This document shows, piece by piece, positions 43-61,200 of a stretch of DNA of 64,000 bases (positions within the stretch are counted from its first letter, which is position 1; each line of letters opens with the position of its first letter). This stretch comes from Deuterostichococcus epilithicus (taxonomy: Eukaryota > Chlorophyta > Trebouxiophyceae > Prasiolales > Stichococcaceae), in NCBI GenBank assembly GCA_033439295.1, contig JAVTLE010000004.1, positions 124,012-188,011 of the forward strand, written 5' to 3'. The translations under genes were made by a program, and so were the position numbers. The notes beneath the pieces were generated by a model. That model was not told the origin of the DNA. It worked only from the letters and a program-made list of their open reading frames with translations, and did not search any database.

Positions 43-520
43 GCAGGCATCGCGGCGGAGGTGTGTGGCAGTGAGCGCCAGGGCTGGCATGCCACGCCTG
101 ATGCGCAGTCTGAAACACGACCAGTAGAGGTCCGGATTGCTTCGACAAGACAATCGCAAGTTTGGCGCCTGCGCGCAGGCACCACCGTGGAGATGCACGG
201 CAGCGCGCGGCAGCTGGTGTGCCCTGCCTGCGGCACCATGGTCGCCTCATGGGGGCGTTGGCGCAGACTTCCTGTGTGGCTGTGGCCAGAAATCCACTTT
301 CCCCTCCGCATACGCGCAGGCATCACCGCGGGGAGGTGCACCGTTCAGAGTGCGGCGGCCGGCGTGGGTTTCGTCCACAACCGTTCGCGGTCATCACACC
401 CGTTTGTATGTGACCGCAAGCTTTGCGTTTTCACTGCAGGCATCACCGTGGAGATGCACGGCAGCGTGCGGCAGCTGGTGTGCCCCGCCTGCGGTACCGT
501 CGTGGGCCTCACGCCGGCGG
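43..520 (+). repeat. Four tandem copies of a sirtuin acceptor site plus exon start
   Basis: A 3' splice site followed by the beginning of the zinc-ribbon exon recurs with GCAGGC at about 43, 175, 316 and 436, spaced 132, 141 and 120 bp. Copy 436 is the real exon. Copy 175 is nearly identical for about 60 bp (it still reads VEMHGSARQLVCPACGT) but runs out of frame and homology. Copies 43 and 316 are badly decayed, keeping mainly the acceptor and a GGAGGTG-like core. Confidence 0.75.
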
Positions 521-3500
521 CAGCGCGCACCTTGAAGACGCGGAAGCCGCTGCGCTGCGCCGCGTGCGGCCATGCGCCCATCCGCACGAAGGTCATGCTG
601 TACGACGACGCGGAAGGTGTGGCCTCCGCTAATCTCCCTTGGTCAGGCGAGGCTTGAATTGCTTGAAAGGCTTGAAAAAGGCGACAAACAAGTCTGGAGT
701 GCGCGTGCAATATCGTCGTGCACAATGCAGCGCGCTGAGGGAGAAGGTGCCTCCCTCTGCCTTCACCGCGGCCGCCGTGCTTGGCCGCGTGCCTTATACG
801 CAGAGATCTCACACGCACGAGCCAAACAGTCCCTTCTCTTGTCAACTCAGCGCTGCTGGAGTCTTGCACTGTAGATAGAGCATATCATGCCATCTTCTCT
901 GTGGCAGCGGGACGCCAATGCCGCTGTTGTGATGCAGCTGCAGCACTGCCCAGAGTCCACACAGCGCCAAGGCCTGAACCCAGAGTCAGGGCTCAGTCCG
1001 GCTTAAGTGTAGACCCTGCCAGGGCCTCCCGCAAACCCCCTACTGCAGTCTTCGATCTCAGGCCAGAGGCGGCGCACGAGCGTGAGGAGGATGAGGACAT
1101 GGCAGCAGCGGATTATTTGACATTGCTGATGTGAAGAGACATGTGCCGCAGAATCAGTCGTCATGCCAGAGTCGTTGTGCGAGCGCATAGAGGAAGACAT
1201 GGCAGTGGCGGTTCTGCAATGTCTCACTGATCAAATCGTACTCACTCATTGGCGTTTCACTTTGTGATTGCCCTGTGCTGCAGACTCGGTCATCACGCCG
1301 GAAACGGTGTATGAGCGCATGGAAGAAGACATGGCGGCGGCAGACTTGGTGCTGTGGGTCGGCATCTCCTTCCAGCAGTCTGCTTCCACGCAGTACTTTC
1401 GGAACGTGCGCCGCTTCTGATACCTTCTGGGTTCTGTGCACCTCGTTCTGCGCCCGTTGAGAGGGCATGATCTGTACATTTTAAGCATCTTGAAGCGAGT
1501 CACTGAAGCGCAGGTTCGTGGCATGGTCGCTGAGGAAGGCCGCCCGGGCTCTCTGGCTGGCCCCTTGAAACCTGTGCCAACCCTCGGCATGCGATTGAAA
1601 TCCGCTTCGATCCTTTGCTCTCAGGTCCGCAACATGATCGCCGAGGCAGGCCGTCTGGGCGCTGTGAAACAGGCGCTGGTCAACCCTTCCGACGAGACAC
1701 TGTGGAACGTGCTGTCAGCCTGCTCCAATACCGGTGCACTTTGCAGGCTCCCCCGCATCTGTCTCCCACTAATGCCAGGGGCTGCGTAAGCCATGGTGCA
1801 GTTGATGCCCTGCAGCGGGCTGTTGTGCAGGCCCTGATGCGGGGCTCGAGTGGAGTCGCATTGCGGCTCTGCTGCCGGCACCACTTCCACAGCGTCACTA
1901 CGACGCGCCTGCACTGTAGTGGTGCTCGAGACCCTGTCAGTGAGTCCAATGTGCAGTGTTTGGTCGTGTCTTCTTACTGACTTGTCAAAAACGACTGTTG
2001 TTGTTTCACCCTGCGAGCTGCCCGCTCGAATGCATCTCCCCGAGTGACTGAAGCCAGCAACAGCAACTCTAGCAGCAGTGATCTTGCACACACGCCGGAG
2101 GTTGCTTGGGCCTGCCGCCAGCGGCAGCCTGCTCACGATGGCTGGCGTCTGGCCTGCTCGATTCCCTGCGTAAGCCTTTCCAGCATGTCCGTTGCTCTAC
2201 GCGGTCAGTCAGATTTGTTATGGCACCTGAAGGCGTCCCATGCTCTCAGGGGACATCTAACAGAGGGATGCAGCACTTTCAAAGTGAAGATGACATCCGT
2301 GAAGCTCAGCGCAACGCTTGCCGCTGCTCAGGTGAGCTGGACGTGCTGGAGGTGCTGCTGCCGGCGGACATCGCGCTGCCGCCGCTGGCCGGGGCGCTTG
2401 CCGCCGGCACGCCTGTCGGCCCACGGCTGGCAGCGGAGGCCGTCGAGCTGGCGGCTGCGGCTGTTGCAGCCGCATCAAAGGTCGCGGCGGCGGCGGCGGC
2501 GCTGCCGCCCGCAGCGGTTCCACCGGCGAATGGCTCCTTGCGGACCCCTGGCGATCGGCGGCCGGCGTCCAGCCGCGCTCGCTCGCCCGCCGTGCGCGCC
2601 GCGGCGGCAGCGGCGCCGGCACGGCCCAGCTCGGCGCCGCCGGTGCTGCCGCTGCACGGCGTGCATGACGCCGGGGCCGGCGGCGCGCTGCGCAAGTCGG
2701 CCTCGGACGCCTCGGCTGCGGCAGAGCAGGTGGCCGCAGAGCATGGCGGGCACGCTCCACTCGATACAGTGCGGCCGGTGAAGCGGGCGCGTCTGGCGCT
2801 GAGCAGCGGCCCGCACCAGCATGCGGCCAGCCAGCCCGAGCTGCGGAGCCTGGACGCCGCAAGCCAGGCGCCAGCCTTCCCGCCCGGCTCTGCCGCCGCC
2901 GCTGGGTCCGGCCCGGCGGCCGGCGCCGCGCTGCAGCAGGCGGCCGTGCGGCTCGCCGGCCGGCCGGCCGGGCAGGCGCTGGGCGCAGCGTTGACAGCGG
3001 GCTTCGTTGCTGCGCGGGCAGCCGCGGCGGCGGACGAATTGGCCGACCTCGCAGCGGACAGCTCGGCTCCGGAGTCGGCGCTTCATTCTGCGAAGCAGGG
3101 GGTTCCGGCGCAGCACTGGGCGCCTGCGGCTGTGGAGCTGCGAACCCGCTGCGCAGGCGACGCCACGGACGGTGCCGCCGCCGCCGCTGCCGGCGCAGGC
3201 GACGAGCCAATGCCCGACGCCGAGTCGCCGCACCACACGGCGCAGGGCGGGGGCCTGGGGCCAAGTGTCGGTCGGCCGCCGCCGGGCGGCGGCCAGGTGG
3301 ATGGCGCTCACCATTTAGGGGGCATGTCCTCAGCCGCATGGGCCCTGTTGCAGCGGGAGTCGCCGCAGCCGCAGGAGCCGCCGGCAGCGCTGGCGTCGCC
3401 GCCCGCGCATGGCCTGGACGGCGGACTGCTGCCGGCGTGGCGAGGCCGCGCCACCGGGGAACACGGCGGCGTGCTGCCCGCCNGCGCNGTGCTGGCGCGG

Positions 3501-4190
3501 GCGCACAGCCCCCTACGGGAGGCCAGCCCGATTTTGTCGGGAGGCGGCGGCGGCGGTGGCGAACAGGCCACTGTAACATGCGTTGCAGCTGAGGCGAGGG
3601 GTGCGGCATCGGCTACGGCGGCGGCGGCAGGTGCTGGCGCAGCGCCTGCCCGCGGACCAGCACTGCCGCAACAACCGGCTCGGCAGCGGCGGCCGCAGCT
3701 GTGGGCACCCGCTGCAGCTGCGACAGGCGCAGGCCCCGACCTGGCAGNGGCACCGACAGCCCTGTCGGTGCCGGCGCGGTTGGACTGGCCACGCTCGCGT
3801 GACCGGTCGCCGGCGCTGCAGCCGCCAGCGCTGAGCCCAACGCTGAGCCCATCGCACGCACACGGCCCCAACGCATTGCAGGACCCTGTGCAGGCTGTGT
3901 CGTCGGCTGCCCAAAATTTGTCGGGTGTGGCAGGGCAGCAGCCGGCTGCAGCTCAAGCGGCGGCTCTGGATGTCAGCGTGTCAACGGCCCAACAGGCCGG
4001 GCAGCATCGTGACGGGTTTCCGTCTGGCATCGGGGCCGGTGGGGATCCTGGCGCCAGGGCAGGCGACACTGCCGGCCCTGCCGGCAGAGGCCGGCTGTCG
4101 GCGGCGGGCTCAGGCGAGCTGGCCGTGAGGCTCGTGGCAGATGGCCTGGGGAGGGTCGCCCTGCACCTGAGCATGTGCGAGGATCCCTGA
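440..4190 (+). CDS. Sirtuin (NAD-dependent protein deacylase), 3' part, with long Ala/Pro-rich C-terminal extension
   Basis: Exons that keep frame are 440-616, 1284-1405, 1625-1733 and 2332-4190; earlier exons lie outside the window. The first exon encodes the zinc ribbon of sirtuins: an EMHGS start, then CPACG and CAACG cysteine pairs, then KVMLYDDAEG. The second has the NAD-fold part (DLVLWVGISFQQSAS). The third has the conserved NPSDE. The junction into the last exon restores SNTG-ELDVLEVLL in phase 1, a typical sirtuin C-terminal strand. The last exon then stays open for about 600 codons of alanine, proline and glycine-rich sequence with the positively charged patch RPVKRAR, unlike ordinary sirtuins, which end near this point. 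Sirtuins remove acyl groups from lysines using NAD. The deacylase family is clear; target and compartment are not. The low-complexity tail carries three ambiguous bases and could be partly untranslated if an unseen splice site is used. Confidence 0.85.
1055..1405 (+). repeat. Two decayed upstream copies of sirtuin exon 1284-1405
   Basis: The real exon reads PETVYERMEEDMAAADL. Upstream, 1153-1220 reads PESLCERIEEDMAVA and about 1058-1133 reads RPEAAHEREEDEDMAAAD. The GA(A/G)GACATGGCAG core sits near 1092, 1192 and 1323, giving spacings of about 100 and 130 bp. Neither upstream copy continues into the conserved NAD-fold strand. Confidence 0.75.
1510..1733 (+). repeat. Decayed copy of sirtuin exon 1625-1733
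   Basis: A CAGGTTCGTGGCATGGTCGC segment near 1511 (reading VRGMVAEEGRPGSL) duplicates the true exon start near 1622 (VRNMIAEAGRLGAV). Spacing is about 111 bp. The copy lacks the conserved NPSDE that follows in the real exon. Confidence 0.75.
3483..3748. other. Ambiguous bases
   Basis: Unresolved bases at 3483, 3488 and 3748 lie in the GC-rich sirtuin tail. Others are at 11929, 11933 and about 57376-57389. All are in long GC-rich, low-complexity stretches, so frame continuity there depends on the assembly. Confidence 0.95.
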
Positions 4191-8600: not shown

Positions 8601-11078
8601 TGCAGGGGCATGATCAATATGAGCGCTTCATTATGCAGCAGAGTAGGCAGCCTTTTATTGGCGAGCAGTGCTTGATTGCTGACTCATAGCACTAAGGCCG
8701 TGACAGCGTATCAGCCCTGACTGCGGCAAAGTCAGAAATAATTGGGCACTTGTGTGACGATCGCCATCAGGCACGAACGCTGCCCCTTCAGTCCAGTCCC
8801 TGCGGCTGCACGGTGGCAGTGTGTGCAAAGTGAGAACGACCTCATCGACTTCAGTCATAGCTGTTTTCGTACATTGGACTTTCCCTGGGCCAAGTCCAAG
8901 AGCTGGAGCCACGAACCCACGATGCAGAGGCCAGAGATTTCTGCTCCCGAGGCAGATGTGAAGACGCCGGCATTGCCGGCTTGAGGCACTGGCACACTGC
9001 TAGGGCGCCTCCGGCGATAACAGAGACCTCGTTGTCGTCTGAACGTGCAGCATTAATGACACCGTGTGCCGCTGCGCCGCTGCCCGCAGGCCCATCATGC
9101 GGGCGGCGGCGCACCTGCTCACTGTCTGTGATCACCCACGCAATTCGTGGAAAGATGGGATCTTTGGGACCCCGCCTCATGATATATAATCCCCGTGTCT
9201 TGTTCACGGGGGCGAATGCCATGCAGGCTCGCGATGCGGGCAACAACGGCGTGGCCAGGTCTGCGGCGGCGGCCTGCCTTGGGCGCGCCTTGTTCCGGTC
9301 GATGCGTCTCTGGCGTTCGCAACAGCTGACCCTCCTCCTGACGATTGCTGCGCCGGAGCCATGCAGGCCCACGACGCGCTCGGCGGCGCGCCGCCAGGCG
9401 CACGGCAGGGACTGGCCGCCGGCGCGCCAGGTCACCGTCGATGCCGAGGTGGCCGCCGACGATGACGGCACGACAGACGTCAGCATGGAGGCGTACGGCT
9501 CCGTCCGGCCGCACAAGAAGGCGAGGACTTTCCTCGGACTGGCAAGCATGGATGTCCGTTTCACGTGGAAACCCCAGCATGACAGATGGGAGTCAAGCTT
9601 TCGGGTGTGCTGCAGGTCGACCGTTGGGATGACAGCTAGTCGATCAGATTGTGCCGTGGCTTGCCTTCGTGCTCGTGGCCATTGTGCGCTAGACCGCCTG
9701 CACTCTGTCGTCCACTGAGTGCAGAGCAATGTGGATCACCAACTCGTGAGGTGCAACAGTATCTCGAACTGCAGACCGACCGCCTGCATAGCCTGCTGGC
9801 CACGCTGCAACGACATTGTCATAATTGCACAGCATCACAGATGCAAGTGAGAAACCCCTTCAACTTGAGTGACGCCCTCGCTGCCGCGAGTGACGCCCTC
9901 GCTGCCGCAGGCGGGGTGCCCAGTCAATATTCATGTTTAAGCGTGAAAAGAAGTTCTCAGTACAATATATCCCTCCTAAATCCAGCGCAGGTGCGATGTT
10001 CCTTCTCCTTTAAGGGCGACACGTACAGCCCACAGAAAAGATCCTCATGTCCTCATGTCTCAGCATCACGTCAACTATCCCCCCCTTGCTTCGGCACAGG
10101 TGGGGCGGCCCATCACGTTCAAGGGCGACATCAACAGCCCCAACCTGACAGTCGAGGAGCGGCGTCGCATCAAGCGGTGCGCAATGGCTTCCTCGCTGTG
10201 CGGGCTGCCCAAGGGAGACATGCACTTTTGCGACCATGACAGGGAATGCCGACCATCTGCGGCCATGCATCCCAGCCTGCATTGCAAACGCCAAGGAGCA
10301 AAGTCCGCCAAGTCCATGCCTGTTTTTGGCGCAAAGTGGCTGCAGGAGGAAACTCACAATATCTATGAAGGCGCTGTCCCACCTGACAAGCACATCCTCC
10401 TGACGCTGCGGGCGCCACACTTTCGAACAACTCTCTCGCACAAGGATGACACACTGCAATAGATGCGTGCTTGCCGGTGCCCGCAGACGCATCGCCAACC
10501 GACAGTCGGCGCAACGGGTGCGCCACAAGCGGCAGCAGCAGATGGAGGAGCTGCAGGCCAAGGTGATCGTCGAGAGGGTACCGGCAGACCGAGTGCCTCT
10601 TGGATGTTTTGTGAACATCATTGACGATCGGTCGGCCGCTACAAGCAGCAGCGGCATATGTGGGAGCTCAAGGCCAAGGCACACTCAGCAGGCCGCGCGG
10701 CTTTTGCTGTACTCGCTGCATCACGTGATGATGCAGGCATTCGTTTGACATCCCCATCAGTGCCTACTGCAAGAGTGGCGGGTGCTGATGACACCTTCAA
10801 AAAGGATTGCACCATAAGCCCTGCTCACACTGGCACCCAAACACTCAAGTATGTGGCCAAACACTCAAGTATGTGGTCTCACATGAGGGCCATGCGTCTG
10901 CGTCCAGGTGGCGGCGCTGAGCGCGCAGAACGCGCGCCTACAAGCCGCGCTAGGGGAGGCCGACGCGCAGCGGGCGCTGCTGGCGGCGCAGCTGGCGGGG
11001 CTCAAGACGCGCTGGGCAGGGGAGGCGGGGCGTGCGGCGCCGCCGCCTCAGCCTCAGGCGAGAAGCGACCTCATGTGA
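5602..11078 (+). CDS. bZIP transcription factor
   Basis: The DNA-binding core is certain. Exon 10100-10176 ends in VEERRRIKR, exon 10487-10562 gives RIANRQSAQRVRHKRQQQ, and exon 10908-11078 gives the zipper. The phase 2 and phase 0 junctions rebuild the basic region with the invariant N-x7-R spacing (NRQSAQRVR), then leucines every seventh residue (EEL, AAL, ARL) and a stop at 11076. Upstream exons are less sure: 5602-5776 (Pro-rich, good start context, donor GTGAGG), about 6090-6240, about 7190-7300, about 8395-8597 (Gly/Ala-rich, ends PPVTR at a GTGTGC donor) and about 9430-9540 (acidic, ends PHKKAR). The basic region resembles plant groups with ANRQSA-type cores. It would bind ACGT-like or related sites as a dimer in the nucleus. 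N-terminal structure is inference. Confidence 0.85.
9871..9916 (+). repeat. Short tandem direct repeat, about 21 bp twice
   Basis: GAGTGACGCCCTCGCTGCCG occurs twice back to back inside the bZIP gene, just before the ghost copy at 9988. A similar 22-bp tandem duplication containing CACTCAAGTATGTGG lies at about 10842-10885. Confidence 0.85.
9988..10176 (+). repeat. Decayed copy of the bZIP exon start
   Basis: The segment at 9988-10050 reads VRCSFSFKGDTYSPQKRSS after a CAG. The true exon starts at 10100 and reads VGRPITFKGDINSPN after a CAG. Both share TT(T/C)AAGGGCGACA and a splice acceptor; spacing is about 109 bp. The upstream copy lacks the basic region. Confidence 0.75.
10521..10692 (+). 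repeat. Decayed downstream copy of the bZIP basic-region exon
   Basis: Real exon positions 10521-10562 encode RHKRQQQMEELQAK. At 10637-10678 the intron encodes RYKQQRHMWELKAK in a clearly homologous segment, 116 bp downstream. This copy lies after the true donor, so duplication occurred on the 5' splice site side here. Confidence 0.8.
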
Positions 11079-16700: not shown

Positions 16701-19284
16701 CCTCCAGGAGCGTGCACCGCAGCGGGCCGCAGACCAAAATGTATCCATCTTGTCCTCTGAGACATAACCTACGACCTTCCACTTGTTTCGGCTTCCCACC
16801 GCCAATGCACCGCCAATGCACCGCCTGCACATGGCATCACGAGCAGCCCACCTGGCCAGGCTCCAGTTGCGCCATGCAGGTCGCATCGAAGGTGGCGTTG
16901 TAGCCTGCCAGCAGCGCTGTCGCGATGTCGCGCATGGGGCGCGCCTGCGGCGCGCCAAACGCCGGCAGGTCCAGGAACCAGCCGGCGTCCACATACAGCT
17001 TCCACCGCCGCAGGCTGCGGGAAGCACGCGGTGCAGGATGTCACCGCATCCAGAAAGGTTGGAGCTGTCAATCGAGCCGGCCAGCATTTTACCCGACTTT
17101 TGGTGCCGCAGGCTGCAGGCATTGAAGGAGCGGTCCGGAGTCCAGAGCCACTAATGCATGCCCCACAGCCGCCAGCGGTGTCACAGCTTCAACAATAGCA
17201 GGCTGCAGGCTGCAGGAGGGGCGACGCTGGTGAGACTCATTGCGCCAGTGCACGCATGCGAAGCTCTCGCAGTCTGTGGTTGCCCGCAGCGCTTAGCCGG
17301 ACATCAGGTCTGCCGGATCGAGTCCACTGCTTCTCTGTCACTTCCTGCTTCCGATATGCCCTCGCACCAGCCCTCACCTAGGCAGCGACGCCTTGACACG
17401 CTGCAGCATGAAGTCGGCGTTGTTGAGCGCCGACACGCCGCCGGCGGAGTCGCCGAGCACGAGCACGTCCGTGGCGTCGCCCAAACCCCGATCCGCCAGC
17501 AGCTGGTCCATGAGCGCCGCGACGACGCGGCGGCCGCGGAATTGATACTGTTCGGTACCCGGGATCAGGCCAGCGTCAATGTCGCCTGCGCATGGCAGAG
17601 CACTTGCACTCAGTATGCAGTGTTGCCTGCTGTCTGAGTGTCGGTCTCGAAGAGCAGGGAAGCCTGCTCGTGCAGAGACTGCCACTGCTCCAAAAACAGA
17701 ACAATGGCCTGGATCGGTGTCGCTTGCCGTTGACACACTGTTGCAAGCTCCGACTAGACTGTCTGCGAGCAGAGACTGAGCCTGCGTCGCCTGCAGGACT
17801 GCCGTTGCCTTGCGCTCGAGATCAGGCCGGCATCGATGCTGTCTGCGCTTGCTGCAAATGCATTCCAGGATGACTCCTGGACAGCGAGCCCAGGACTTGT
17901 GCCACCGGCATGCTAACCTTGCGATGGAACGATCAACCCTTCTGCACGGCAATCTTTCCTGCACGCAGCAGCAGCTTCGACAAAACATGACATCACAAAC
18001 CCACCAAGGGAGGAGTCGCTGGTGCAGTACCACACGTACACGTGGTTCCAGTCGGCGAACGTAGGGTTTTTGACGGCGTCGGCCGACAGAATGCCGCCCG
18101 GCTGCACCAGGTTGTTGGGGATGCCGGCCACCGAGGCGGTGGTCGAAATCGTTTCCTGCAGTTCAGAACAGCTGCATGAATATGTGATCACCAGACAGGT
18201 GATGCTGGCCGTCGAGGCTGCAGACGAGACCATCACCGGCGGCCTGGGCGGCCCGGCAGCAGCAGCAGTGACGCCATCGTGTCTGAACCACATGCTTGAG
18301 TGGGGACGTGGCAGCCCCAGAGCGGCCGTGCGGCGCTGAGACAGGTGCCGCTGCACATTCGCCGCACATTCAGCAGGCCAGCGCTGCAACACATGTGGAC
18401 ATCCGCGGCTGCAGGCTGCAAGTGCGATCAGCCGCCAGTGTGCGGCAGCCTCGCGTGCCGTTAACATTGGACGCCCTCTATGCGGCTGCCACCTATGGCA
18501 TGCGCACGGCTGACAAGGCTGTCTTGTCGTGAAGGATACTGAGCACGTGACCAAAGGAGAGAAGCTTGTGGCAGTCGCACCGGCAGCATGTCAGAGGACA
18601 CCCAGTAGGGGAAGGATGCCGAGCGGGTGGCGCAGGAGGCGGCGTCGGTGCACCAGCCGCCGCCCTGGAAGCGGATGAGCCACCGCGCTGCGCCGCTGCC
18701 GCTGCCCGATCTGAAGTAGTACACAGCTGCACGGCGAGGAACCAGGGATGGAGTGGAGCTCCTGGGTCATTGTGGAGCTGCTAGCTGCTCCAAGGAGCAG
18801 GGGGGTATGGCGCCATAGCCTTGCAAAGAATGGGCCATCGGCTGCCCCACTGCTAGGAGTCAGCCAAGCAGCATGGGGGAGCTGCCCTTGAAGCTGCGCC
18901 GTGACAGCTTTCGTTTGGCATCATCATCCTATGCGCATGGGCACCATAGACAGTGGGCTCCGCTCAGCAAGCACAGCAGAGGCACAGCCCGCCTTGGAAG
19001 AGAGCAGCAGGCGCAGTGAGCTGTCCTCGAAAGCACGCACCTGAGGAGCCATCGTTACACACAGCCAGAGGGTCCGTCGAGTTGAGGTAGTAGCGGCGCA
19101 TGGTGTTTGCCGCACTCTGGGCTCCGACTGACTGAGTCTGCAGGCCGACTAACGCCACCAGCACCGCAATCAGACACAGCCTGTGCGGCTGACCTGGTGG
19201 ACGGCTGCCCCGTCTCCTGCCGTTGCTGCCGCTGCAGCCGCTGTCGTCGCTGGCAAGGTGGCCGCATCGCGACGCCTGCCACAT
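13784..19284 (-). CDS. Pectin acetylesterase / Notum-family carboxylesterase, secreted, possibly GPI-anchored
   Basis: Frame-consistent exons in transcript order are 19284-19041, 18726-18581, 18155-18005, 17585-17378, 17014-16852, 16467-16377, 15725-15445 and 15181-15011. An exon then starts at 14582 (LDTYPGVRSNEEC), and a last exon ends at 13784. The start has a signal peptide (CLIAVLVALVGLQ). Family landmarks appear in order: NDGSS-AVYYFRSGSGSG, WLIRFQGGGWC, NPTFADWNHVYVWYC, nucleophile GDSAGG, LYVDAGWFLD, LYDSANLG with the likely catalytic Asp, and SEACRLHE with the likely His. So the Ser-Asp-His triad is intact. The family removes acetyl or acyl esters from polysaccharides or proteins outside the cell. 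The C-terminus is Ala/Pro/Ser-rich and ends in a hydrophobic stretch (GGGLLLILAGVAAGAVAAM), as in GPI-anchored proteins. The junctions of the last two exons are not resolved. Confidence 0.92.
13965..14045. repeat. Short tandem repeat coding a Ser/Pro/Ala tail
   Basis: A 15-bp unit, GCTGCCGGGCTGCTG with small variations, is repeated several times on the plus strand. On the minus strand it encodes repeated PAASS-like blocks in the acetylesterase C-terminal linker, just before the hydrophobic tail. Confidence 0.8.
15666..15890 (-). repeat. Decayed copy of acetylesterase exon 7
   Basis: The true exon (15725-15445) has AEAFRAAMAASL. The intron just upstream in transcript order, about 15856-15889, reads EAEFRAAMTASLKV. 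The two share GCGGCGCGGAA and flanking bases and lie about 190 bp apart. Confidence 0.75.
17560..17852 (-). repeat. Decayed copies of acetylesterase exon 4 start
   Basis: The true exon edge at 17591-17563 (plus-strand GATCAGGCCAGCGTCAATG then CGCCTGCGC) is copied at 17850-17818 as GATCAGGCCGGCATCGATG then CTGTCTGCGC. A weaker copy lies around 17710-17735. Spacings are about 138 and 125 bp. The copies are upstream of the exon and keep the acceptor CAG. Confidence 0.7.
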
Positions 19285-20773: not shown

Positions 20774-23700
20774 ATGCCGGCGTCGCTGCCGGCGTCGCCG
20801 CCAACACAGCCAACTTTGGCGGCAGCAGCCGTGGCGTGCGGCGACAGCGAATCCGGGCTAGCTCAATGGCTGTGCAGCCGCCAGCGCAGCGTCATGGAGG
20901 CTGCCTGCGCCCAGAACTGCAGCGCAGCTGGCAGCCCCTCAGAGGCGACTTCAAGACAGTATCTGCAGCGACGGCGACGGCGACGAAGCACGCATCTGTC
21001 CCAGGCTGCCAGGGCGGCCCTGGCCGCAGGTGCGCTGCTGGCGGCGCTGCTGGCGGCGGCAGCGCCAGTCTCAGGCGCTGCAGCGGACGCAGATCCAGGG
21101 GAGGAAGAGCGACTCATAGGTGCGCCGCGCCGCCAGCACTTCATTGCCTTGTGGCTGTCACGTGGGCACAGACAGCCTTCAAGCACTGCTGCTGCGGCTC
21201 CTGCATGCTCCCTGCAGCAGTGGCAAGGGTGCAGAGCCTGCCCCTTCGGCGCTCAAACACTTGATGCAACTGCTCTTGAGCAGTACCTGATTAGTGGGAC
21301 GGCATGTTGCGAGTCATTAAATCGTGTTTAGGATATACAGCTTTGACTGGCTGCAACTGCTAGCCAGGTTTTGTTCACGGGGCCGGGGGGCAACGACCTG
21401 AGGCATTGTGCCAGTCAGACATTCTGTCCAGCCCAGCTGCCAATTGGCAGCCCCAGCTCAACCTGGGACCATATCCTTCATTGAACCCTGTTTGGGTTTC
21501 ATCATCTGCTGTTTGAGCAGTATATCCTGCAACAGACACGGTCCCAATGTTGAGCCCTCACTTTCCCAGCTGCCTGATCCAATGGCTCAGGACTCCAGCC
21601 TCGTGCGGTTTCGGCCGTGCAGGCTGGCAGGGGGAAACATATCACGAGGCTCCGAAGCCCACATTTGACGTCCTGAGCTGGGCGCCGCGCATATTCCTCG
21701 CCGAGAACCTGCTGACCCCGGGTGCGCAGCTGCACGTGTGCCTGATCGGCCTGTGCAGCCTCGTGGAGCACGTGCCTGCATCGGGGAGTCTGCACCAGCG
21801 GGTCTGCACCGGCGGTTGAAGGGCACCAGGAAAGTCAGACGGCGGCACCGTGTCGCCGGGCGGCGCCTTGATCGGCAGCCGCTTTTTCGCTGCGGCGCCC
21901 CATGCTAAGACCTGCATGCACGGTCCCTGTGACGCAGCGGAGGTGGCACACCTCATCGCCAAGGCCAAGCCACGCATCGCGCGGAGCGGCGTGGTGGACA
22001 CCGAGACCGGCGGATCCTCTGTCTCGGAGATCCGCACCTCCTCGGGAATGTTCTTCGAACGCAACGAGGATGCAGTGATAACAGGTGCGCACGCATCTGC
22101 GTGTTCACCTCGATTTCTCGAGGATATCTCTCTCATATCCCCCAGCTTGCAATTCTCACGCAAGCGAGTCATCATCATCGGTGTGCTCACAATGCGTCTT
22201 TGACATCTCCCCTTCTCAACATGTGTTTCTTCGCCTCCCTTTCACACTCATGTTATCTGAGCGCGACGACAACGCCGGCATCGTCGGTGCACACACGTGT
22301 CTGAAATCATCAATCTCTCTGTTTTCCCACCTGGTCCAAAACCTGGTCCCTTTTGCCTCCTTCGCAGCCCTTGCAGCGGGTGACTGCTGATGCTGCACCG
22401 TAGCGAACGTTTTTCATGCTCTAGGACCTGCAACCAGGTCAGCACAGGCAGGCGCCTCCCGATGCGCATGCACCGGCGCTGGCTCCGCCACCGGCATCTG
22501 CCGTCGCACACCGGCATCTGACAGCCGCTGGTCCGCTGATCAGGTGCCCTCGCCGTGCAAGCAAGGCTGTCGGGGGCCCCAAAGCGTGTGCTGTTTCTGT
22601 CTGCAGCCATCGAGGACCGTCTGGCGGAGTGGCTGATGGTGCCATTCTACAACGGTGCGGCACGCCGCAGGGCGCCCCCCATAGGCACCCTCCCTTCTGC
22701 TGCTCCTGCCATCCTTTGTCGGCATTGGTACCTGTGCCGGCTGGCAAAAGCCCGGCATAAGGGACCGGGACCGGTGTCGGCATTGCCACGACTGCTGCTC
22801 GTGCTGCCGTCAGTCGACTTCTGATGGATTTGTGCCTGTACAAAATCAACATGCCTTGTCTCCCTCCCTGCCGCTCAGGCGAGGGCATCCAGGTGCTGAA
22901 GTATGAGCACGGCCAGCACTACAGCGAGCACTTTGACTACTTCTTTCACGAGGTGCGCCGCTGTTTCCCGACATCATTATGGCGCATCCGCATTCCAGGA
23001 GTGATGACTCTATCAGAGCTGTTCGGGTAGTTCCCTATATCTTTCCAAGCATGCGCCATGCCACGGAATGCGCTCCCATGCGCAGGCCAATGTGCAGAGG
23101 ACTGCGGGAGTGAGCAGGGTCTGTCACCATTGCCGGGCAGCAGATGGTGCAAAGCTGCCAATGCTGGGTATCTGCTCTCTGCTGCAGGGGGGGACCGCCA
23201 ACGGCGGCAATCGGCTGGTCACAGTTCTGATGTACTTGTCCGACGTGGAGGAAGGCGGCGAGACGGTGCGTTCTCTTCCGGCGCGGTTGCTGCACGCTGG
23301 CGAGCTCCGGCATGCGCAATGATGCATGTCCCAGTGCCCCGGAGCCGCAGTCCATCGTTGAGGGGACAAGTAAAACTGGACAGTTTCCCTGCCGTGCACG
23401 GTGTCTGAAGCTGTGCCATCGTTACACTGGTGGAAGGCCTGCACACTTCGTTGCTCTTCGTGACTGCTCGACAGTAGGTCCAGCTGCGACAGTGCGTGTG
23501 CATGCGTCATGGCCCCTCAGGCCGCCGTCACGCAATGTTGACGGCGGCGCAGCACGACTCGGGCAGCCTCGCTCGACGTGGGTGCAGAGCGCCTGCCACA
23601 CGTGTTCAGCCTCTTTTGACGAACACACAACACCCATTCGTGCCCGCAGGTGTTTCCCAATGTGGAGGTGCCGCCGTGGCAGCAGGAAGCCAAGGAACAG

Positions 23701-24943
23701 TACTCCGATTGCGCCATGAAGGGTTTGGCGGTAAAACCCAAAGCCGGAAGCGCCGTCGCCTTCTGGAGCCTGCAGACGGACGGGAGGCTGGACCAAGGCT
23801 CGCTGCACGGCGGCTGCCCTGTACTGAAAGGCGTCAAGTGGAGCGCCACCAAGTGGTGAGCGGAGGTTCTTCACTTTGAGCCTGAGCCTGTGACAAGCCT
23901 GTGATAAGCCTGGAAGGTCCTATGGCTGGACCCGGGCATGCTGCACGACGGCCGCCCTGGGCTCAAAGGCAGCAAGTGGAGCGCTACAAAATGTTTAGCA
24001 ATCGTCAGCACCGGGCATCAAGGTCACGACCAGTCGGTCCTTTTGAGAGCCTGCAAGCTAGGGCGCTGCACAGCAGGTGCTTCATCTCGAAAGGCTTCCA
24101 AATGGAGCGTCCCAAGATGGTGAGCGGCACAAACAAACATGGTCACATGGCTGCTGACAGTCGTGAACTGCCGGCAGAGTGCGGACCTCCAAGCAGCGGC
24201 TGGTCTGTGCTGCGAGGAGTGAAGCAGCAAGGTGCAAAGCGATCAGTGACACATTACGCCATCGGCAACAGTGCGCAAACAGTGCGCCAGGACGCCTGCA
24301 GGGCTGCAGCTGTGCGTGGAGCTCGTACTGCGACCCTCAGGGGACACTGGGCCAGGGTCCGAGCGGTCTTGTGCAAGTGGCTGTGTCTGCTGCAGGGTGC
24401 ACGTGGCGCGGTATGCTGTGGGAACAGAGAAAGCGGTCGCGGTGCAGCACGTGGTACACGTGCCGCCGCCGCCGCCCGCGCCGCCCGGCTGCGCGGACCT
24501 CGACAAGCACTGCGCGCAGGTGCGTGGCGCGCGACCCGTCGTGGGACTGCCTGCTCAGCCTGATGCGGTGCCGTGCAAGCCCGGTGAGCGTCGTTGCTGC
24601 GCTGGCGCAGTGGGCAGAGTCTGGAGAGTGCACCTCGAACAAGCCGTTCATGGTGGGCACGGCATCGCGCCCTGGCGCCTGTCTGTTCGCCTGCGAGAGG
24701 TGTGCGTCGTCAGTACCTCTTGTCGCTTCGCTCTCTCTGCGACCTCAAGCCCCCGTCGCTGCTGTGCCCGCACGCATTTTTACTCTGAACCCTGCTGCGG
24801 GACGGGGGCGGGAACGGGGCGGCAGACATGCGTTCAGGCGAACAGGCTGGCGTCCTGGCTTGCCAAGCAAGGGCACGCGACAGTCCTCGCTGCACGAACG
24901 TTGTCGCCTTCCTGAGGTCTGTCAAATGAAGGCGTGCTATTGA
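20774..24943 (+). CDS. Prolyl 4-hydroxylase alpha-type, with C-terminal ShKT domain
   Basis: Exons 20774-21119, 21623-21721, 21938-22084, 22607-22654, 22879-22952, 23188-23265, 23650-23855, 24396-24519 and 24611 onward join in compatible phases. The N-terminus has a basic stretch and a hydrophobic anchor (ALLAALLAAAA). The core is typical: SWAPRIFLAENLLTP, SEIRTSSGMFFERNED, EGIQVLKYEHGQHY. Iron ligands are His and Asp in HFDYF and the distal His in SLHGGCPVLKG, with the 2-oxoglutarate lysine in KGVKW. The 24519/24611 junction rebuilds a ShKT module (DKHCAQWAESGEC, then GTASRPGACLFACERC). The enzyme hydroxylates prolines of cell-wall hydroxyproline-rich proteins in the ER or Golgi using Fe(II), 2-oxoglutarate and O2. 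ATG 20894 is an alternative start. The end at 24943 assumes that the last exon runs on to its stop; an earlier donor near 24700 is possible. Confidence 0.93.
23790..24245 (+). repeat. Three decaying downstream copies of the P4H active-site exon end
   Basis: The real exon end (AAAGGCGTCAAGTGGAGCGC near 23828) recurs at about 23964 (AAAGGCAGCAAGTGGAGCGC), 24091 (AAAGGCTTCCAAATGGAGCG) and, weakly, 24209. Spacings are about 136, 129 and 118 bp, and identity falls with distance. Copy 2 even keeps the donor-like TGGTGAGCGG. The first copy still reads GRPGLKGSKWSATK. None is followed by the next domain, so the true donor is fixed at 23856 by the junction to VHVARY. Confidence 0.85.
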
Positions 24944-37200: not shown

Positions 37201-40200
37201 TTTGAGGGATGCGCAGGCGGGGTCGGTCACCAACGAACTCGAGGCTGACCCATGTGGTGTCAGGCGCTGCGGCGGATGCGCGGGGGCACGGCAGCAGCGG
37301 CGCATGACGCGGCTGGCGCCTGCGATCTCTCGTGCAAATTTGCTCTCCCTGCGGGTCCCGCGGGTCAAACTGACAGCATCCGTCCGGACGCTGACATGTC
37401 GCGTGCGCCCGTTCGTAACAGCCGGACATTCGGCGGGCGGCGGACGAGCGGCCGTGGGAAGGCCGCCGCTCGGCGCTGCTGTTCCGGGGAGCTCGCTCCA
37501 CGCCGGCGCGCCTGGCGCTGTTCGAGTCTGACGCCCTGGCCGAGTCCAACCTGACGGACTTTGCATACACGGACGTGGACGAGGAGACGGAAGGCGCCGA
37601 CGGCGACGTGGCCACCAAGTTCGGCGGCGACGCGTGCGCTCCGCCACTGCCACTCCCTGGCCTCAATGCCAGCTGTTCGAGCTGTTCACCATGCACGATG
37701 CACGTTGCCGCTGCCGCGCATTGGCGCTCGTGGCTGTCGCCGCGCTCGAGGGTTGCTAAGGACTGTCCGACAGCCTGCGTGTCGCTCTGAGCCTTGTTGC
37801 CGGCTGGTCCAGTGACCTGTGCGCCGCTGCTGCGGCGGACGCAACCTCAGCACCAGGCTGCTGGGCAGGCGAGCTGCTTGTCCGTTTGCCTTGCTGTTCG
37901 CCTGTTGTCTTGGTCCGCCCACTGCCTTTAAACATGCGGCCAGCGCCAGATGAAACGGTGAGGGCCCCCGGGTGGAGTGCTGCAGGCTGCCGTGTCCTGG
38001 CTGTGCGCACCAGCTGAGCAAACACTGCCGGCATTGGGATCGACACCACGCCCGACCTGCCTGGTGACCACCAGAGTTTCTGCCGTGCTGCAGGGAGGGC
38101 TTCCTGAAGCCGCCGCAGCAGTGCGACACGCGCTACATCCTGCACATGCAGGTGCGGCGGGCCCAGTGTCCAGCCAACAGCAGACGGCCTGCTCGAATCT
38201 CCGCCTGCAGGATGAGATTGCCCGTGTGCAAAAATCCTAACCCATGGCCCGAGAGCGTGCGGTGCAGCCCTGTGTGCCGGTGCGGGCCATTGTCCGCTGT
38301 CTGCGTGTTCAGTGCCGTGCAGGCCTGCTCCGCCTACACGCGCCCGGCTGCCGACAGCTTCTGACACCCCACTTCTTCGAGCATTCCCGGAGCAGGGCTC
38401 GGCGCACAGCGGGCGTCTCAAGTACGCGATGGCTTGCAACACCGTCGTCATCTGGCCACGCCACGAGACCAAGGGCCGCGAGGAGTTTTTCCACCACCTG
38501 CTCATGGTGCGGCAAATACCTCACCGGTTTCGCATGGCACAGTGGCGCTGGCCCGTGATCCATATGCATGATCCCCCACCAGCCGGACGAAAGTTGGTGC
38601 TCTTGGCGGCGCGGCGTCTGAAAGGCATCTTCAGCTGCTGTCTGGACGGCTCTTGCTTTAGCAGCGCCCTGCATGCACGTGCAGCCACCATGAGAAGGGC
38701 AGTCCCACTGCGCATCGCTCCACCCGGCTGTCGCGGCGGCGGCTGCCGCCACCCCCACCGCCACCGGCCGCTTGGCAGCCCTGCTGTCAGCAGTGCGTCG
38801 TCTGCTCGAGGGCGCTGACATGGGGGCGCCCGAGAGCTGATCTGACTGTGGTTGTTGCGACACCCTGAACTCCGTCTCTGACTCCACACCTGCGACCCAC
38901 AGGACGGTGTGAATGTGGTGATGGTGCCGCCGGTGACGGCTGCCAACGGCGGCGCGCACCTGCTGGAAACAGTGGAGAGGCTGGAAGCGGACGCGAGGCG
39001 CACCAAGCGCGTCGGGCGGCGCGCCGGCGCGCTCATCCAGCACCGCCTGCGCCAGGAGGACGTCCTGAGCCACTGGGAAACGGTGTGTCCTCCCACCAGG
39101 GTTGCTATCCTGTTGTTGCATTTTCTGGCCGGGCTTCCAGCAGGATTCGAGCGGCAGGTGTAGCAGCAGGCGCGGCGGCGACAAGACGAGCTGACCCACA
39201 ATGCTGCCGGTCGTGATCCTACCGAGCTGCTGTCGCAGTTGGTGCTCCGCAGCAGGAGCCGTGGAAGCCTGGTGCATGTTGTGGATGACACCACCCCTAT
39301 GGCCTGGAGCGCCGGTCTTTCACCGCCTGCCCAGCCCTGCGCCACCCCTCACTGGCATGCCGCCTGCCGCCGCACAGGTTCAGTTCTTCCTGCACCCGGA
39401 ACTGCAGAGGCTCCGGCTCAACCTGGAACCAGATTCATCGACCTCGCCATACAAACAGACACATAGCCATGGGCCTCTTGGCGCTGCGCAGGTTCTGCGG
39501 CAGCACTCGGAGCTGCAGAAGTTCGAGCTCAAAACGCCGCACGAAGACGCGGTGCCGCTGGAGGACAGCATCCAGCGCGGCGAGTCCTTTGACGGCCTGC
39601 CCGACTCCATAGCAGAGGCCCGCAACTGCACCGTGTGTCAGGTGTGCCCTCGACATTACGCTTGGTTCCTAGCGGAATTGGTACACCTGCTCCCTGCGAC
39701 AGCGTGGCGCCCTGCACTGCGCCCACGGACTCCCAACAGGACCAGAGGTCAGCCAACCAAGTCCTGGCTGCTGTCAGGCTGCGCAGCGCTGGCTGGCAGG
39801 CTCGGTGATGTTGTGTTCAGCTTGGGCAGCTCGCCCTGAGCCGCTGCATCTGCCTGGTCCCATCAGAGCAGGGCTGCAAATCGCTGCAGCGTCCTGCACC
39901 TGCACTTCAATCGACTACTATGTGTTGTGTGTGCTTTGGACTTTGCACGCCCCTGCACCCGCTCATCTCAAACTGCTATGCACACCCGGCAAGCGACTCG
40001 TCAGCTTTGGTGCATCCTTCCCACCGCCATTCCGTTGCAACACCTTGGACAGGCGTTTGGGCTGGGCGATCCGGAGCCGCTGGCAAAGCGGCGTGCGGCC
40101 GCGCGCGCCGAGCGCAAGCAGGCGGCTGCGGCGCGCGCCAAGGCGGCCGCCAAGGTGAAGCAGGCTGCGGAAAAGCGGCGACGAGCGGAGGAAAAGCAGC

Positions 40201-41423: not shown

Positions 41424-43539
41424 TTACAAAAGGATGAGAGGCAGAGCGCACCGCCTCTGGCGGATGAGCGCCAGGCGCTCCATGTCTAGCCGCGCCCGCT
41501 CCGCCTCCTCCGACTCCACCGCGCTCCTGCACAGTCGCCCGTCATGTGTCAAGGCTTCGTTCCCGCGATAAGCTCCGCCAGTCTGGATTGTGAACGTGTG
41601 TCAGGGGCGGCGCCGGCCTGCGAGCACGCCTCTCGGGAGGTGAACTGCCAAGTGCCTCGGTGCAGATCCGCTGCGGTCGGCCACCTCCGAGAGGCGGCGC
41701 CTCCGGGCTGCCGCGCCACCGTCTGTGGGGCGCACTGCTGCGCTTGATGCACATCGGCTGGCTCTGGCTGCAGGGCAGGGCGCTGCCGTGCTGGCCGCCG
41801 CGCTGGCTGATGCGCCGTCGCCGCCCTTCGCAGCATGCGGCAGTTGCGCCAAAACGGCCCGGCGCTCGGCAAAACGCCTTTTTCTGCTAGTGGACTCTTG
41901 AGTCGGACAGCTGCCGGCCAGGGGGCTGCATGAAAGTGCCCACCTGGCGGCGGGCTGACTGGGGCCCGGCGGCGGCTTGCCGCGCTGCTGCGCCGCCAGC
42001 TTGCGCGCGATGTCCGCCGCGGAGGTGTCCTCATCGGACTCTGACTCCGTCTCCGTCTCCTCCTCGGAGTCTGTTTCGCCCTCGCTGCTTTCGCTCGCCG
42101 CCTGACCCGCCGCCTTCGGCTGCAGACACGAGAGCAGGACTGTTGGGAGGCCGGCTGGCACCAAGCTTGCAGCCTCAGAGTCCGTCTCCTCTCCGCAGAA
42201 TCAATGTTCTCTGCTCCTCGCTGTCGCTCGGCGCCTGCCAGGCCGCATTTGGCTGCGACAGCAGTACGGACCAATGTTGGGAAATGGCTGCGTCATCCTC
42301 AAGGGTTGCGTCGAATTCTCCTCGGACTCCAACCCAATCTCCTCGGTCACTGCCCTTCTCACTATTGCTTGGCGCCTGCCCAGCCATCTTCGGCTGCAGA
42401 CACGATCACAAGACAGTCCTGTGGCTGATTCGCGCCAGGCGCAAAGATGACCAATGTCCCCCTCCTCGCTGTCGCTCGGCAGCTGCCCCACCGTCTTCGG
42501 CTGGGCGCCGGCTAGAGATGTGTTGGGCTCCACGGACGAGAGCATATGGCTAAAATGCCGAAATTGAGCTGGCCGTTCTTCGATGTCCATTTCCTCCTCC
42601 TTTCTGTCACTCTGGCAGCTGGCCTGGCGTTCTCGACAGTGGCATCGACGCCAGAGATGCATGCCGCAAGCATCACCGCCGCCACAGTCGTCATTGCTGC
42701 TCCACTTGCCGCGGCTAAAGCTTCCGCTGACTCTGGCCCGGTTTTGTAAAATATACTGGCGGAACTCAGGCTGCTGTGAACATGCCAGCATGTGGCCGAC
42801 ACTGGCCCACAGGTTGCAAACGAGTCAATATACCTGGCCTGCCGGCGCAGCCGCCACTGCCGCTGCCGGCTTGGCGTCTGCCGCGGCATCCGCTGCTGGC
42901 GCCCCTTCGTCTGAGTATTCGTCCTCGCTATCTGACGGCGGCATCATGCCCGCCGTCGCCGGCTGGCCGGCTGCAGCAAGAAAGCTGTTTACCGCAGCGC
43001 CGTGCACAACCAAGAACAAGGAATTCAGACGTTAACATGCTCGCCCAGCAGCGGTCCCACCATGCTACCACGCTCAACGTCACAGACTGTCGTGCTGCAC
43101 TCGTGCCAGTTGACAATGCCAGCCATTCGCACGGCCCTTTCGGAGGTTTCGACAGCCCCGGTCAAGCGCATTGCGAACGCCCACACCGCGCAAGGCTTGA
43201 GCGTGCGAAATCAGAGGCATGCACATGCATTGCTGCATGCTCGTGTGAGGCGGAATGCTGGAAGGCTGGCCAGCCTTGCTTGGCGTGCAACGCCCTGATG
43301 CACCTTCGCACAGCAACGGAGAAGACAGCCATGTCCGGCACAGCAGAAGCATCCACTGCAGAGGAGTCAGTCTTACCATCTCGCTTCACTTTGACTTTTG
43401 TCACTCGCTCCTCCTCCGACTCGCTGCCCGAGTCATCGGATGCTGCAGCATCTGTGGCTGGTCGCCAACCCCTGCCGCCGCGGGCGCGTCCGCTGCTGGC
43501 GCCACCCTTGCGCGTGCCATGGCCGCGTGTTTTCCCCAT
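41424..43539 (-). CDS. Small acidic phosphoprotein, PP28/PDAP1-like
   Basis: Four exons (43539-43377, 42970-42834, 42119-41944, 41526-41424) join in phase to 579 nt, 192 residues. The start MGKTRGHGTRKGG is basic. Then come Ser/Asp/Glu stretches of casein kinase 2 type (ASDDSGSESEEE, PPSDSEDEYSDEG, SEEETETESESDEDTS). The C-terminus EEAERARLDMERLALIRQRR resembles the conserved end of PP28/PDAP1, a 28-kDa heat- and acid-stable phosphoprotein of about 180 residues in animals and plants. The usual central Asn-Pro-Asn motif is not visible, so the assignment rests on length, the charged architecture and the C-terminal helix. The chain ends in an unusual ALPLILL. It could instead be an unrelated acidic coiled-coil protein. 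Confidence 0.6.
42060..42515 (-). repeat. Three decayed upstream copies of PP28-like exon 3 start
   Basis: The true exon starts QPKAAGQAASESSEGE, with plus-strand CGCCTTCGGCTGCAGAC at about 42111. Copies with (C/A)(T/A)CTTCGGCTG or CATTTGGCTG lie near 42245, 42388 and 42492, spaced about 133, 143 and 104 bp. Translated on the minus strand they read QPNAAWQAPSDSEE, PKMAGQAPSNSEK and QPKTVGQLPSDSEEG. Each keeps the acceptor, the Gln-Pro-x-x-x-x-Gln pattern and the acidic start, then loses frame. Confidence 0.85.
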
Positions 43540-55679: not shown

Positions 55680-55750
55680 GAGGGATAACGGGATCGAACC
55701 GCTAACCTTCTGCTTTGGAGGCAGACGCGCTACCATTGCGCCAATCCCCC
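55679..55750 (-). tRNA. trnW-CCA: tRNA-Trp (anticodon CCA)
   Basis: Read on the minus strand, GGGGGAT pairs with ATCCCTC as a seven-pair acceptor stem with one G-U. GCGC pairs with GCGC in the D arm. TCTGC-CTCCAAA-GCAGA is the anticodon arm with CCA at positions 34-36. AGCGG-TTCGATC-CCGTT is the T arm, and the discriminator base is A. There is no intron. The body matches the plant nuclear tRNA-Trp pattern (GGCGCAATGGTAGCGCGTCTG). The gene lies at the end of the 110/111-bp array. Confidence 0.95.
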
Positions 55751-56477: not shown

Positions 56478-56625
56478 GTGGTCTCCGCTGTCGAGGCCGA
56501 GCTGTGGGCGGCCGCGACAGCTGCCGCCGCAGGGCCGGCGCCGCTGCCAGCCGCCGCAGTTCCCACGGTGTGGCTGTGGTGGCAGACCAGCGGCGGCGGC
56601 AGCGGCAGCAGCAGCAGGCGCCGGC

Positions 56626-56687
<62 letters not shown>

Positions 56688-58223: not shown

Positions 58224-61200
58224 CTTCTTGACACGCTGGCCGACGGCACCGGCCTCAGCGAGCAAGACACCGAGGCGGCGCTGACGGTGCGCCCCTGCAT
58301 GGCGAGCTGCAGTGGAGGTCCGCGCATGTGGCACACGACGGCCCGACGCCGCTGTTTGTTCGCATGGTGCCTCCATGGTGCAGACACACGAGTCAATCCG
58401 AACCCTGCGCCTCGAATGCAGGGGTTGCTGCGGGAGGGAAAGCCGGTGCAGATTGCCGCCTTCCTCATGCTATTGCGCGCCAAGGTGAGCGTTCCGGACA
58501 TTCACAGGTCTGCAGGAATCATGCCGGCAGTCCTGCACCTGCTCGACGTGAATTTGGGGCCTGGAATCATACGAACGGACAAGGATTGTTCATACGCCCG
58601 CCATGGATGAACCCTTTCACCCTGCTGTGACCGCCGACGGGGTGGTAACTCGTCATGCATGCAGGGGGAGACGGCTGAGGAGGTCGCCGGGCTGGCCAAG
58701 GCAATGCTGCAGGTGTCCGTGCCAGTGCAGATTGGCGAGGACGGTGCGCGTTTCAGAAGAGCTCATCACATCCATCCAGAACAAAAGAGGAGGCGGATGT
58801 CAGCGGTGCTACTCCATAGGCAGCTGGATCGCGCCAGCACATGGCCATATGACGGCATGCATGGCTCACAGAGCTTGCCAGAGCGACAGCACAGCATGGC
58901 CCGCGGCAGCCCGCGGCATCAGACGCAGCGCCAAAGCTTGACTCACAGCGACTTTGACCAAGAGCATGCATGGAGAAATGAGTGTCAACAGGGCTGCGAA
59001 CCCTCCTGAACCCTGGTTCACGCTGCAGTGCTGGACATCGTGGGCACGGGCGGCGACAACATCGGCAGCGTCAACATCAGCACCGGCGCCTGCGTCGTTG
59101 CCGCCGCCGCCGGGGGCCGCATCGCCAAGCACGGCAACCGCTCCGTGTCCAGCTTGTGCGGGTCTGCCGATGTGCTGGAGGTGTGCAGTCACACTCTCGT
59201 AGGCTCTCGAAAGTAGGCTCCGCAGTTACTTGGAGGCACCGCTTGATGTGGCCTCTGCGGCTCGCCCAATGTGGTGGTGGTGGTGTTCTGTTGCGGGACT
59301 CCGCATGGCACACCGCTCTGTGTGCAGCCTGTGCGTACTCCACGGACTTCTAGAGGTGGGGCCTGAGAAACCCCCAGACCTTGCCTGGGTTCGGCAATGT
59401 CAAAACACGCATCTGCTGCCGCCGTGGGCTGCAAAGCGGCGCCCGGGACCTGATCGTCGGTGCTGCAGGCCACCCCCGAGGCCATACAAGTGCTGTCTCT
59501 AGCATCCAGCAGGTTCCTGAAAGACGTCGGGCATAGCAGAGCCACTGCCTGCGGCCCCGGAAGACCGCCACTGCCGTGCCCAGCGTCTGGAGGGATCACA
59601 CATTTCTGTGTGTCAGATACACCTGCATGGTTGTGCAACCAGCCGTTGCTTCATGCGAGTTCCGCCGCAGTTGCTGGGCACGGCGGAGGGGCCAGGCATC
59701 CCCCGTTCGGTGGCGCGCTGTGCGCGGGAGGCGCGCGCCGCCTTCCCGTCATGAAAAGCACATGAAAAGCCTTGGTGCCGATCTCATAGGCGCAGGGCCG
59801 GGGCGCCGTGCCCGAACATGCAGCTGGCGGCCTGCAGCATGCGGGAGGCGGGCCGATGCTCAGGCCGATGCACAAGCCAGTGCAGCTCCGCATGCTGATG
59901 ACTCGCGTTGTCTCCCAAACGCAGGCGCTGGGCGTCGCAGTGGACCTGGGGCCTCGGTCCGTGGCGCGCTGCGTGCAGGAGGCGGGCGTGGGCTTCATGT
60001 ATGCGCCGCGGTACCACCCCGCCATGGCCGCCGTGCGCCACGTGCGCAAGGAGCTCGGGGTGCGTCACAGGTTTTGGAGCGGCGCCCGCCTTCTGGCAGA
60101 TCCAGCACCTGGAACCTGGAATCTGGCTCATGAACACAACTTTCTTTGCAAGGAGATGGGGCTGCATCACACCTCCTTTTTGTTGAGGAAGAGCTCTCCT
60201 TCTGAATAGACAACAAACCGCTGGCGACCTGGGCACTGGAACACTCGGCAGCGGCCGCCACGCGCCATGTGCGCACAGCGCTGGGGATGCCGCGTGCATC
60301 CATTCCAGGTCTGTACTCCAGGGCATTTTGGAAAGTGTCAGCGGTCTGCCGCCATGCGCCATGTGCGCTGTGAGGCGGGGGGTTTGTGAACCCCACACCT
60401 GACGCGGCGTGCGCCGATTCCTGGTGTGGCATTCTGATGTGGGTGCAGATGCCACGTCGATTTCGTGTGCAGGTGCGCACGGCGTTCAACATCCTGGGTC
60501 CGATGCTGAACCCGGCGCGCGCGGCGTACGGCCTGGTGGGCGTCTACAGCGCCGACGTCGGCCCGCTCATGGCGGCGGCGCTGCAGCGGCTGGGGATGCA
60601 GAGGGCGCTGGTGGTGCACAGCTTTGGGCTGGACGAGCTCACGCCGCTGGGGCCGTCGGACGTCATAGAGGCGCGCTCTGACTCCCCCCCACCACCCGAC
60701 GACTGAATGTGTTGAGAAGGCGAGTTGCGAGGCACTCGTCGTGCAAATCGTTGGGTTGGATGGGGATTCGAAGCCGCTCGGTCCACCCGGCGTCAGCGAG
60801 GTGGTCCTCAAAACCCTGTTCCAGGTGCTGGAGGCTGTTCTTGCAGAGCCTGGCTTTTAAAAGGGGTCGGTCATCTCGCGCTGCGAGGTCGGCACCAACA
60901 GCCACTGAAGCTTCTCATCCACCCAAAACTATTGACGTTCAATAGGTCACGCCTACGAATGCGTGCACATACAAGCTGAAGCCGCCCTGGGCCATCCTCA
61001 CGCCCTACGCCACCACACGCCATCCAGTGCTGAGCTGCTTCTCAGCGTCCATCCAGGTCACGCCTACGGGGACACGCACATACAAGCTGGAGCCAAAGGA
61101 CCTGGGCATACCGCGCTGCGAGATAGCGGACCTGGCCGGCGGCGACGCCGCGCACAATGCCAACCTGCTCATGGTGCGGTGGTCTGTGTGCTGTGGCACA

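Follow-up and report, generated by a model that had tools for sequence, protein, structure and literature searches.

The window analyzed here is a stretch of 64,000 nucleotides from the green alga Deuterostichococcus epilithicus (C4:124012-188011 of a 46.8-Mb genome in 21 contigs), and the original prediction held that the introns of nine of its genes contain decayed copies of the neighboring exon edge. The gene models are our own, made by a gene finder self-trained on the sequence, and were compared with known proteins for malate dehydrogenase, TrpD and one exon of another stretch (L016); the other gene names in the window are those of the original prediction. The predicted positions gave 32 pairs, which were aligned and set against a baseline of far-apart random pairs of the window. 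The copies were confirmed: 25 of the 32 pairs exceeded the baseline at p<0.005, and at least one significant pair (p<0.005) is present in all nine genes. The seven pairs that fell below this level are 43/316, 17563/17710, 17710/17818 and, in the P4H gene, 23828/24209, 23964/24091, 23964/24209 and 24091/24209. The 99% point of random window pairs taken at the same lag was 22.3 versus 15 for the far-apart pairs, but the same-lag set contains the phenomenon itself. The predicted positions had been picked post hoc; blastn self-comparison and an ungapped diagonal scan (20 sequences including the window, with the minisatellite masked), both independent of those picks, recovered many of the same pairs.

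The sirtuin gene lies on the forward strand, and the head of its exon at 440..616 (gene model, pair alignment) has been copied upstream, with decayed copies at 43..100 (blastn 42-100 versus 435-491, 74.6%; pair alignment), at 155..257, where ~20 bp of intron tail are included (blastn versus 415-519, 82.9%), and at 307..366 (blastn 316-366 versus 436-482, 78%). Another sirtuin exon, at 1284..1405 (gene model, pair alignment), is the source of copies at ~1092 and ~1192; blastn delimits a decayed copy of exon head plus intron tail at 1142..1209 (lag 132), and a further exon-head copy at 1511..1555 (lag 111; diagonal scan, pair alignment) precedes the exon at 1625..1733 (gene model, pair alignment). 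In the bZIP gene, also on the forward strand, a decayed exon-head copy lies at 9971..10031 (lag 109; diagonal scan, pair alignment), and the tail of the exon at 10487..10562 (gene model, pair alignment) is copied downstream at 10637..10679 (lag 116; blastn 81%). The acetylesterase gene, on the reverse strand, has an exon at 17378..17585 (gene model, diagonal scan) whose head recurs as a decayed copy at 17817..17851 (diagonal scan 17560-17594, lag 257; pair alignment). The tail of the P4H exon at 23650..23855 (forward strand; gene model, pair alignment) is followed by a decayed copy at 23924..23999 (lag 138; blastn 79%) and by a second, weaker one with approximate limits 24049..24136 (23828/24091, score 29.5); the scores of the series against 23828 are 44, 29.5 and 15, which agrees with the predicted fall of similarity with distance. 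Decayed copies of SRP receptor beta exon tails are found on the reverse strand at 26641..26678 (lag 268, blastn; absent from the original list) and, with approximate limits, at 27830..27880 (lag 93, pair alignment). Also on the reverse strand, the head of the PP28-like exon at 41944..42119 (gene model, pair alignment) has been copied three times, at 42181..42260 (blastn), 42367..42405 (blastn 85%) and 42452..42503 (blastn).

The malate dehydrogenase gene (forward strand) carries decayed exon-head copies at approximately 30157..30230 (lag 139, pair alignment), upstream of the exon at 30296..30446 (gene model, pair alignment, alignment of the protein with solved enzymes), at 31097..31157 (lag 104; blastn 80%), upstream of the exon at 31205..31362 (gene model, protein alignment with solved enzymes), and at 32048..32096 (lag 98, diagonal scan), the last being a copy of the head of the exon at 32145 that was absent from the original list. 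The modeled protein aligns with solved enzymes over nearly its whole length, with no copy needed. In TrpD (forward strand), a decayed copy of the exon head at 60944..60983 (lag 111; blastn 82.5%, homolog alignment) precedes the true exon head at 61055..61094 (blastn, homolog alignment). The gene finder fused this copy into the exon; the stretch that it adds, model residues 286-327, is unaligned with the solved homolog shown, which supports the original reading of the copy as non-coding. The GT90 case (39378..39421, forward strand; diagonal scan, pair alignment) holds only in part: the repeat of the exon edge at 39492 is real, but the copy is not demonstrably non-coding because a single modeled exon, 39378-39641, contains both copies and their lag of 114 is a multiple of 3; this in-frame repeat is possibly a duplication retained in the protein. 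Elsewhere in the window, a CAG array of 45 units (56588-56722) gives polyglutamine in the same gene model as TrpD, and a minisatellite at 54488-55696 (10.9 copies of a 111-bp unit, 95%) has a unit as long as many exon-edge lags (range 80-150 bp) and is crossed in part by long open reading frames on both strands.

The sample was completed with 24 additional 10-kb stretches of the same genome, amounting to 304 kb with the window (<1% of the genome). The final models of these 25 sequences comprise 72 genes and 500 introns, 440 of which were usable; the other 60 were excluded for a flanking exon <40 bp, for N or for the minisatellite. The splice signals reached by the gene finder are AG/GTGCG for the donor and TGCAG/G for the acceptor, and over all gene models GC takes the place of GT at ~10% of the inferred donors. 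The diagonal scan of 20 sequences found 170 repeat segments at lags 30-999 versus 30 at control lags 3000-3969, the short-lag excess peaking at lag 100-160 and rising again at 220-280, and one dinucleotide shuffle of 18 sequences, run without the low-complexity filter, left 24 segments versus 396 observed at lags 40-619. Over the 25 sequences, the non-redundant pairs at lag 30-319 are 74 exon-intron, 29 exon-exon, 15 intron-intron, 9 intergenic and 7 exon-intergenic; the control lags gave 1 exon-intron, 6 exon-exon, 1 intron-intron, 0 intergenic, 4 exon-intergenic and 2 intron-intergenic pairs. The exon-intron pairs stand well above the control lags (74 versus 1), and 52 of the 74 exon-intron pairs are at lag 80-159, so that the copy adjoins its source as a short tandem duplication requires. 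Two repeats of other kinds were seen outside the window: a degenerate array of ~73-76 bp units at L019 8294-8860, intergenic by the gene models, and a ~123 bp repeat in a modeled exon at L002 5262-5476 (87% identical), which by eye is a Pro/Thr-rich protein repeat.

When copies were called at score >=16, 53 of the 440 introns, about one in eight, contained a copy of the adjoining exon edge. The 57 matches comprise 35 acceptor-side and 22 donor-side cases, as expected if copies occur on either side, and 42 of them come from outside the window, spread over 17 of the 24 stretches; one match, at lag 1144, is probably due to chance. With the first gene models and the same threshold, 29 of 341 exon heads matched their own intron (other introns 0.2%, own reverse complement 1.5%, own shuffled 0.6%), as did 21 of 341 exon tails (0.5%, 0.9% and 0%, respectively). 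Chance or compositional likeness of GC-rich coding edges can be dismissed with near certainty for the bulk of the matches: the own reverse complement still yields the matches just given, and for exon interiors 90-150 bp from the acceptor the rate of intron matches (score>=13) is 9.1% (143 cases) versus 5.9% for exon heads against other introns, but other introns, shuffles, reverse complements and far lags all give far fewer matches, and at control rates ~3-10 of the 57 could be chance. A dispersed element, such as an introner or a transposon-derived intron, is disfavored, as three copied edges searched against the whole genome had local copies and no distant match, in a search so insensitive that the P4H copy (79%) and two weaker copies in sirtuin escaped it.

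The spare copies show the decay without coding constraint, and the leftover decoy splice sites, that had been postulated. Mismatches between copy and exon at codon positions 1, 2 and 3 (0.188, 0.205 and 0.254) are nearly flat, 50 copies contain 91 indels, mostly of 1-2 bp and frequently frameshifting, and a ghost AG is still present in 16 of 29 acceptor-side copies and a ghost GT in 9 of 21 donor-side copies. Judged from these features, the copies look non-coding. Tandem exon duplication, as in mutually exclusive exons, likewise places repeated exon sequence within neighboring introns, and the copies might be functional, either as such alternative exons or as conserved splicing decoys. This would fit with the exon part being preserved better than the flank, with the AG or GT kept in many copies and with an in-frame stop in only 6 of 50 aligned stretches. 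It is nevertheless very unlikely, given the near-flat codon-position mismatch, the frequent frameshifts, the mere 9 of 44 primary lags that are divisible by 3, and a malate dehydrogenase protein that requires none of the copies. Unlike mutually exclusive exons, whose hallmark is the conservation of both frame and codon constraint, the copies are partial, often frameshifted and under little codon constraint. Recombination between diverged alleles was rejected because its mismatches would be mainly synonymous, and they are not.

The primary lags measure 117 +/- 20 bp (mean, SD; n=44), and the 57 matches are distributed as 0 at lags <80, 44 at 80-160, 2 at 160-205, 10 at 205-290 and 1 above. Broad size spectra fit these lags poorly, but the fit is fairly close for an exponential spectrum of mean 60 whose units include 40 bp of intron or more. 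A true preferred unit size is hence likely but not proven, and detection and the need for a working splice site may account for part of the shape of the lag distribution. Nucleosome repeat sizes are not matched in particular by 117-bp lags, and the proposal of units of nucleosome or Okazaki size is not specifically supported. The proposal that duplication lengthens introns fared better: the median length is 410 bp for introns with copies versus 240 bp for those without (p=6e-13), and 27 of the 73 sampled introns of at least 400 bp bear a recognizable copy.

A review (PMC3443670) treats the gain of introns through tandem genomic duplication of AGGT, and individual cases are described for Drosophila (PMC2891723) and potato (PMC4974935). 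The exon-edge copies resemble these cases in that coding sequence with splice motifs is tandemly duplicated, but differ from them in that existing introns are lengthened. Precise intron birth of the AGGT type, which had been put forward as a related route to new introns, was rejected for this sample, as its signature (a lag equal to the intron length and a donor border like the acceptor border, score >=12) is found in 0 of 440 introns. The mean score at a lag equal to intron length is slightly raised, 4.30 versus 3.26, which we attribute to the shared splice consensus, and L004:4557-4657, where the copy lag is 115 and the intron length 101, could be one imprecise case of intron gain.

The duplication process had also been considered as continuing. 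At a constant rate, 51% of the detected pairs are predicted to have a score>=35, but 6 of 56 do, and 28% are predicted to have 90% identity or more over 25 bp, but 2 of 56 have; this age list was thinned of overlaps and omits 8 of 64 pairs, 6 of them exon-exon and 2 from the L019 array. The unthinned diagonal-scan list at lag 80-159 contains 6 of 72 pairs of at least 90% over 25 bp, 2 of the 6 being in the L019 array. A fresh unit at L016:9178 (92%) and two L004 pairs at 90-97% (5650-5688, lag 149, and 5803-5837, lag 115), which were dropped from the thinned list, speak for continuing short tandem duplication at a constant rate, but in view of these counts we regard it as improbable. A simulated pulse with ~0.35 draws per site reproduces the observed score quantiles, and from simulations with assumed exon and indel rates, applied to the overlap-thinned list, we infer an old pulse with an age of ~0.3 neutral substitutions per site. 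The process thus looks largely past, because young pairs are too rare for a constant rate; collapse of near-identical young units in the assembly could hide some.

The view that the exon edge alone was copied, for instance by break repair with filler or by RNA-linked copying, and not a whole unit, was considered initially. In 30 cases, the intron-side score was 8.4, versus 7.5 for random sequence and 23.4 for simulated duplication with equal rates, and similarity drops sharply at the junction, the flanks being near random beyond ~10 bp with the ghost CAG kept. This contrast was weakened because the simulation ignored that matches are selected by their exon side, so that the divergence of selected matches was put on unselected flanks. 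A junction-anchored gapped test gave an intron-side mean of 6.43 versus 4.75 for the control (p=1.5e-4), with 10 of 51 cases above the control 95% point; the excess is clear at L018:3611 (18.2), and L019:3654 and window 617-1283 are also above that point. Anchored simulations with small indels gave intron-side means of 7.4-18 versus the 6.4 observed, and simulated junction-spanning duplications with heavy-tailed indels came near both the exon-side and the intron-side scores under a few of the 18 settings, one of them having 0.35 substitution draws and an indel rate of 0.04 per site. The weak flanks can thus be explained by detection bias plus larger indels, although this match is fitted by tuning and is not proof. 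Copying of the edge alone gains from L004:5676, where exon divergence is 7% yet the flank matches over just ~15 bp, but the residual intron-side similarity above controls, the retained ghost CAG and the ability of heavy-tailed indels to reproduce the loss of flanks make it unlikely. In the L004 region concerned (5600-5990), an exon tail that looks kinase-like by eye occurs three times together with its donor site; over 35 bp the two ghosts share 97% identity, whereas the spacers look unrelated. Simple decay hardly accounts for these ghosts, and the copies may have exchanged sequence by gene conversion.

Hardly any complete units are present in the 304-kb sample; the one complete and fresh case is L016:9178-9336 (lag 133, 92% identical in the diagonal scan), both copies of which were found at C15 in the genome. 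This unit illustrates the state before decay and, like the weak residual similarity on the intron side, supports tandem duplication across the junction. The modeled exon starts at 9411 and its copy at 9278, and from its second residue the exon matches solved E2 ubiquitin-conjugating enzymes (UBE2O-like; E=0.001); the unit therefore joins ~75 bp of intron to the exon head.

Taken together, we consider short tandem duplications that spanned splice junctions, arose in an old pulse and have since decayed to be the best explanation, and probably the correct one. Short tandem duplications, mostly with units of 80-150 bp, would have been frequent for a time in an ancestor of this genome, the units spanning either the acceptor (intron tail plus exon head) or the donor (exon tail plus intron head). 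Such a unit would be tolerated because splicing can go on using whichever copy keeps the mRNA as it was. The spare edge of the exon would end up within the intron and decay by substitutions and by small and large indels, while the duplicated part of the intron would decay in both copies and soon become unrecognizable. What would remain is an apparent copy of the exon edge only, ~100-150 bp from the border, in some cases in arrays of up to three copies. The likely molecular route would be end-joining fill-in at staggered breaks. Small tandem duplications do arise at staggered breaks, and short tandem duplications have been described as the commonest short (<100 bp) insertions in humans, while insertions in plants are said to hint at a like origin (Schimmel et al. 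2021, PMC8355091). As far as that account goes, the exon-edge copies are similar in being local, sequence-independent, short and tandem, and differ in that their units are mostly 80-150 bp, that they are old, and that they are mainly seen with an exon edge as one arm, which leaves this mechanism a candidate. No description of the pattern in an algal genome was found in the titles and opening lines of abstracts among the matches listed for the open-access literature, and it may have been reported elsewhere, as most subscription papers lie outside that search; in the passages of the Coccomyxa genome paper and of the Auxenochlorella paper found by search words, exon-edge copies are unmentioned.

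In summary, exon-edge copies are a countable trace of intron growth. The ancestor of each copy, the exon, is known, which permits direct measurement of intron decay rates, indel spectra and splice-site loss; with young copies so scarce, sister species also offer a test of when the mutational episode took place. The copies are also a warning for annotation, as our gene finder took copies for exons in TrpD and perhaps in GT90. A wider view, to which we give somewhat less than even odds, is that exon-intron junctions were hit by an ancient genome-wide pulse whose units had a preferred size of ~117 +/- 20 bp, and that this pulse was a main source of the lengthening of introns in the lineage. If true, this fossil layer could date the pulse and provide a neutral clock for the decay of introns, and the preferred size may stem from a particular geometry of breakage or replication.
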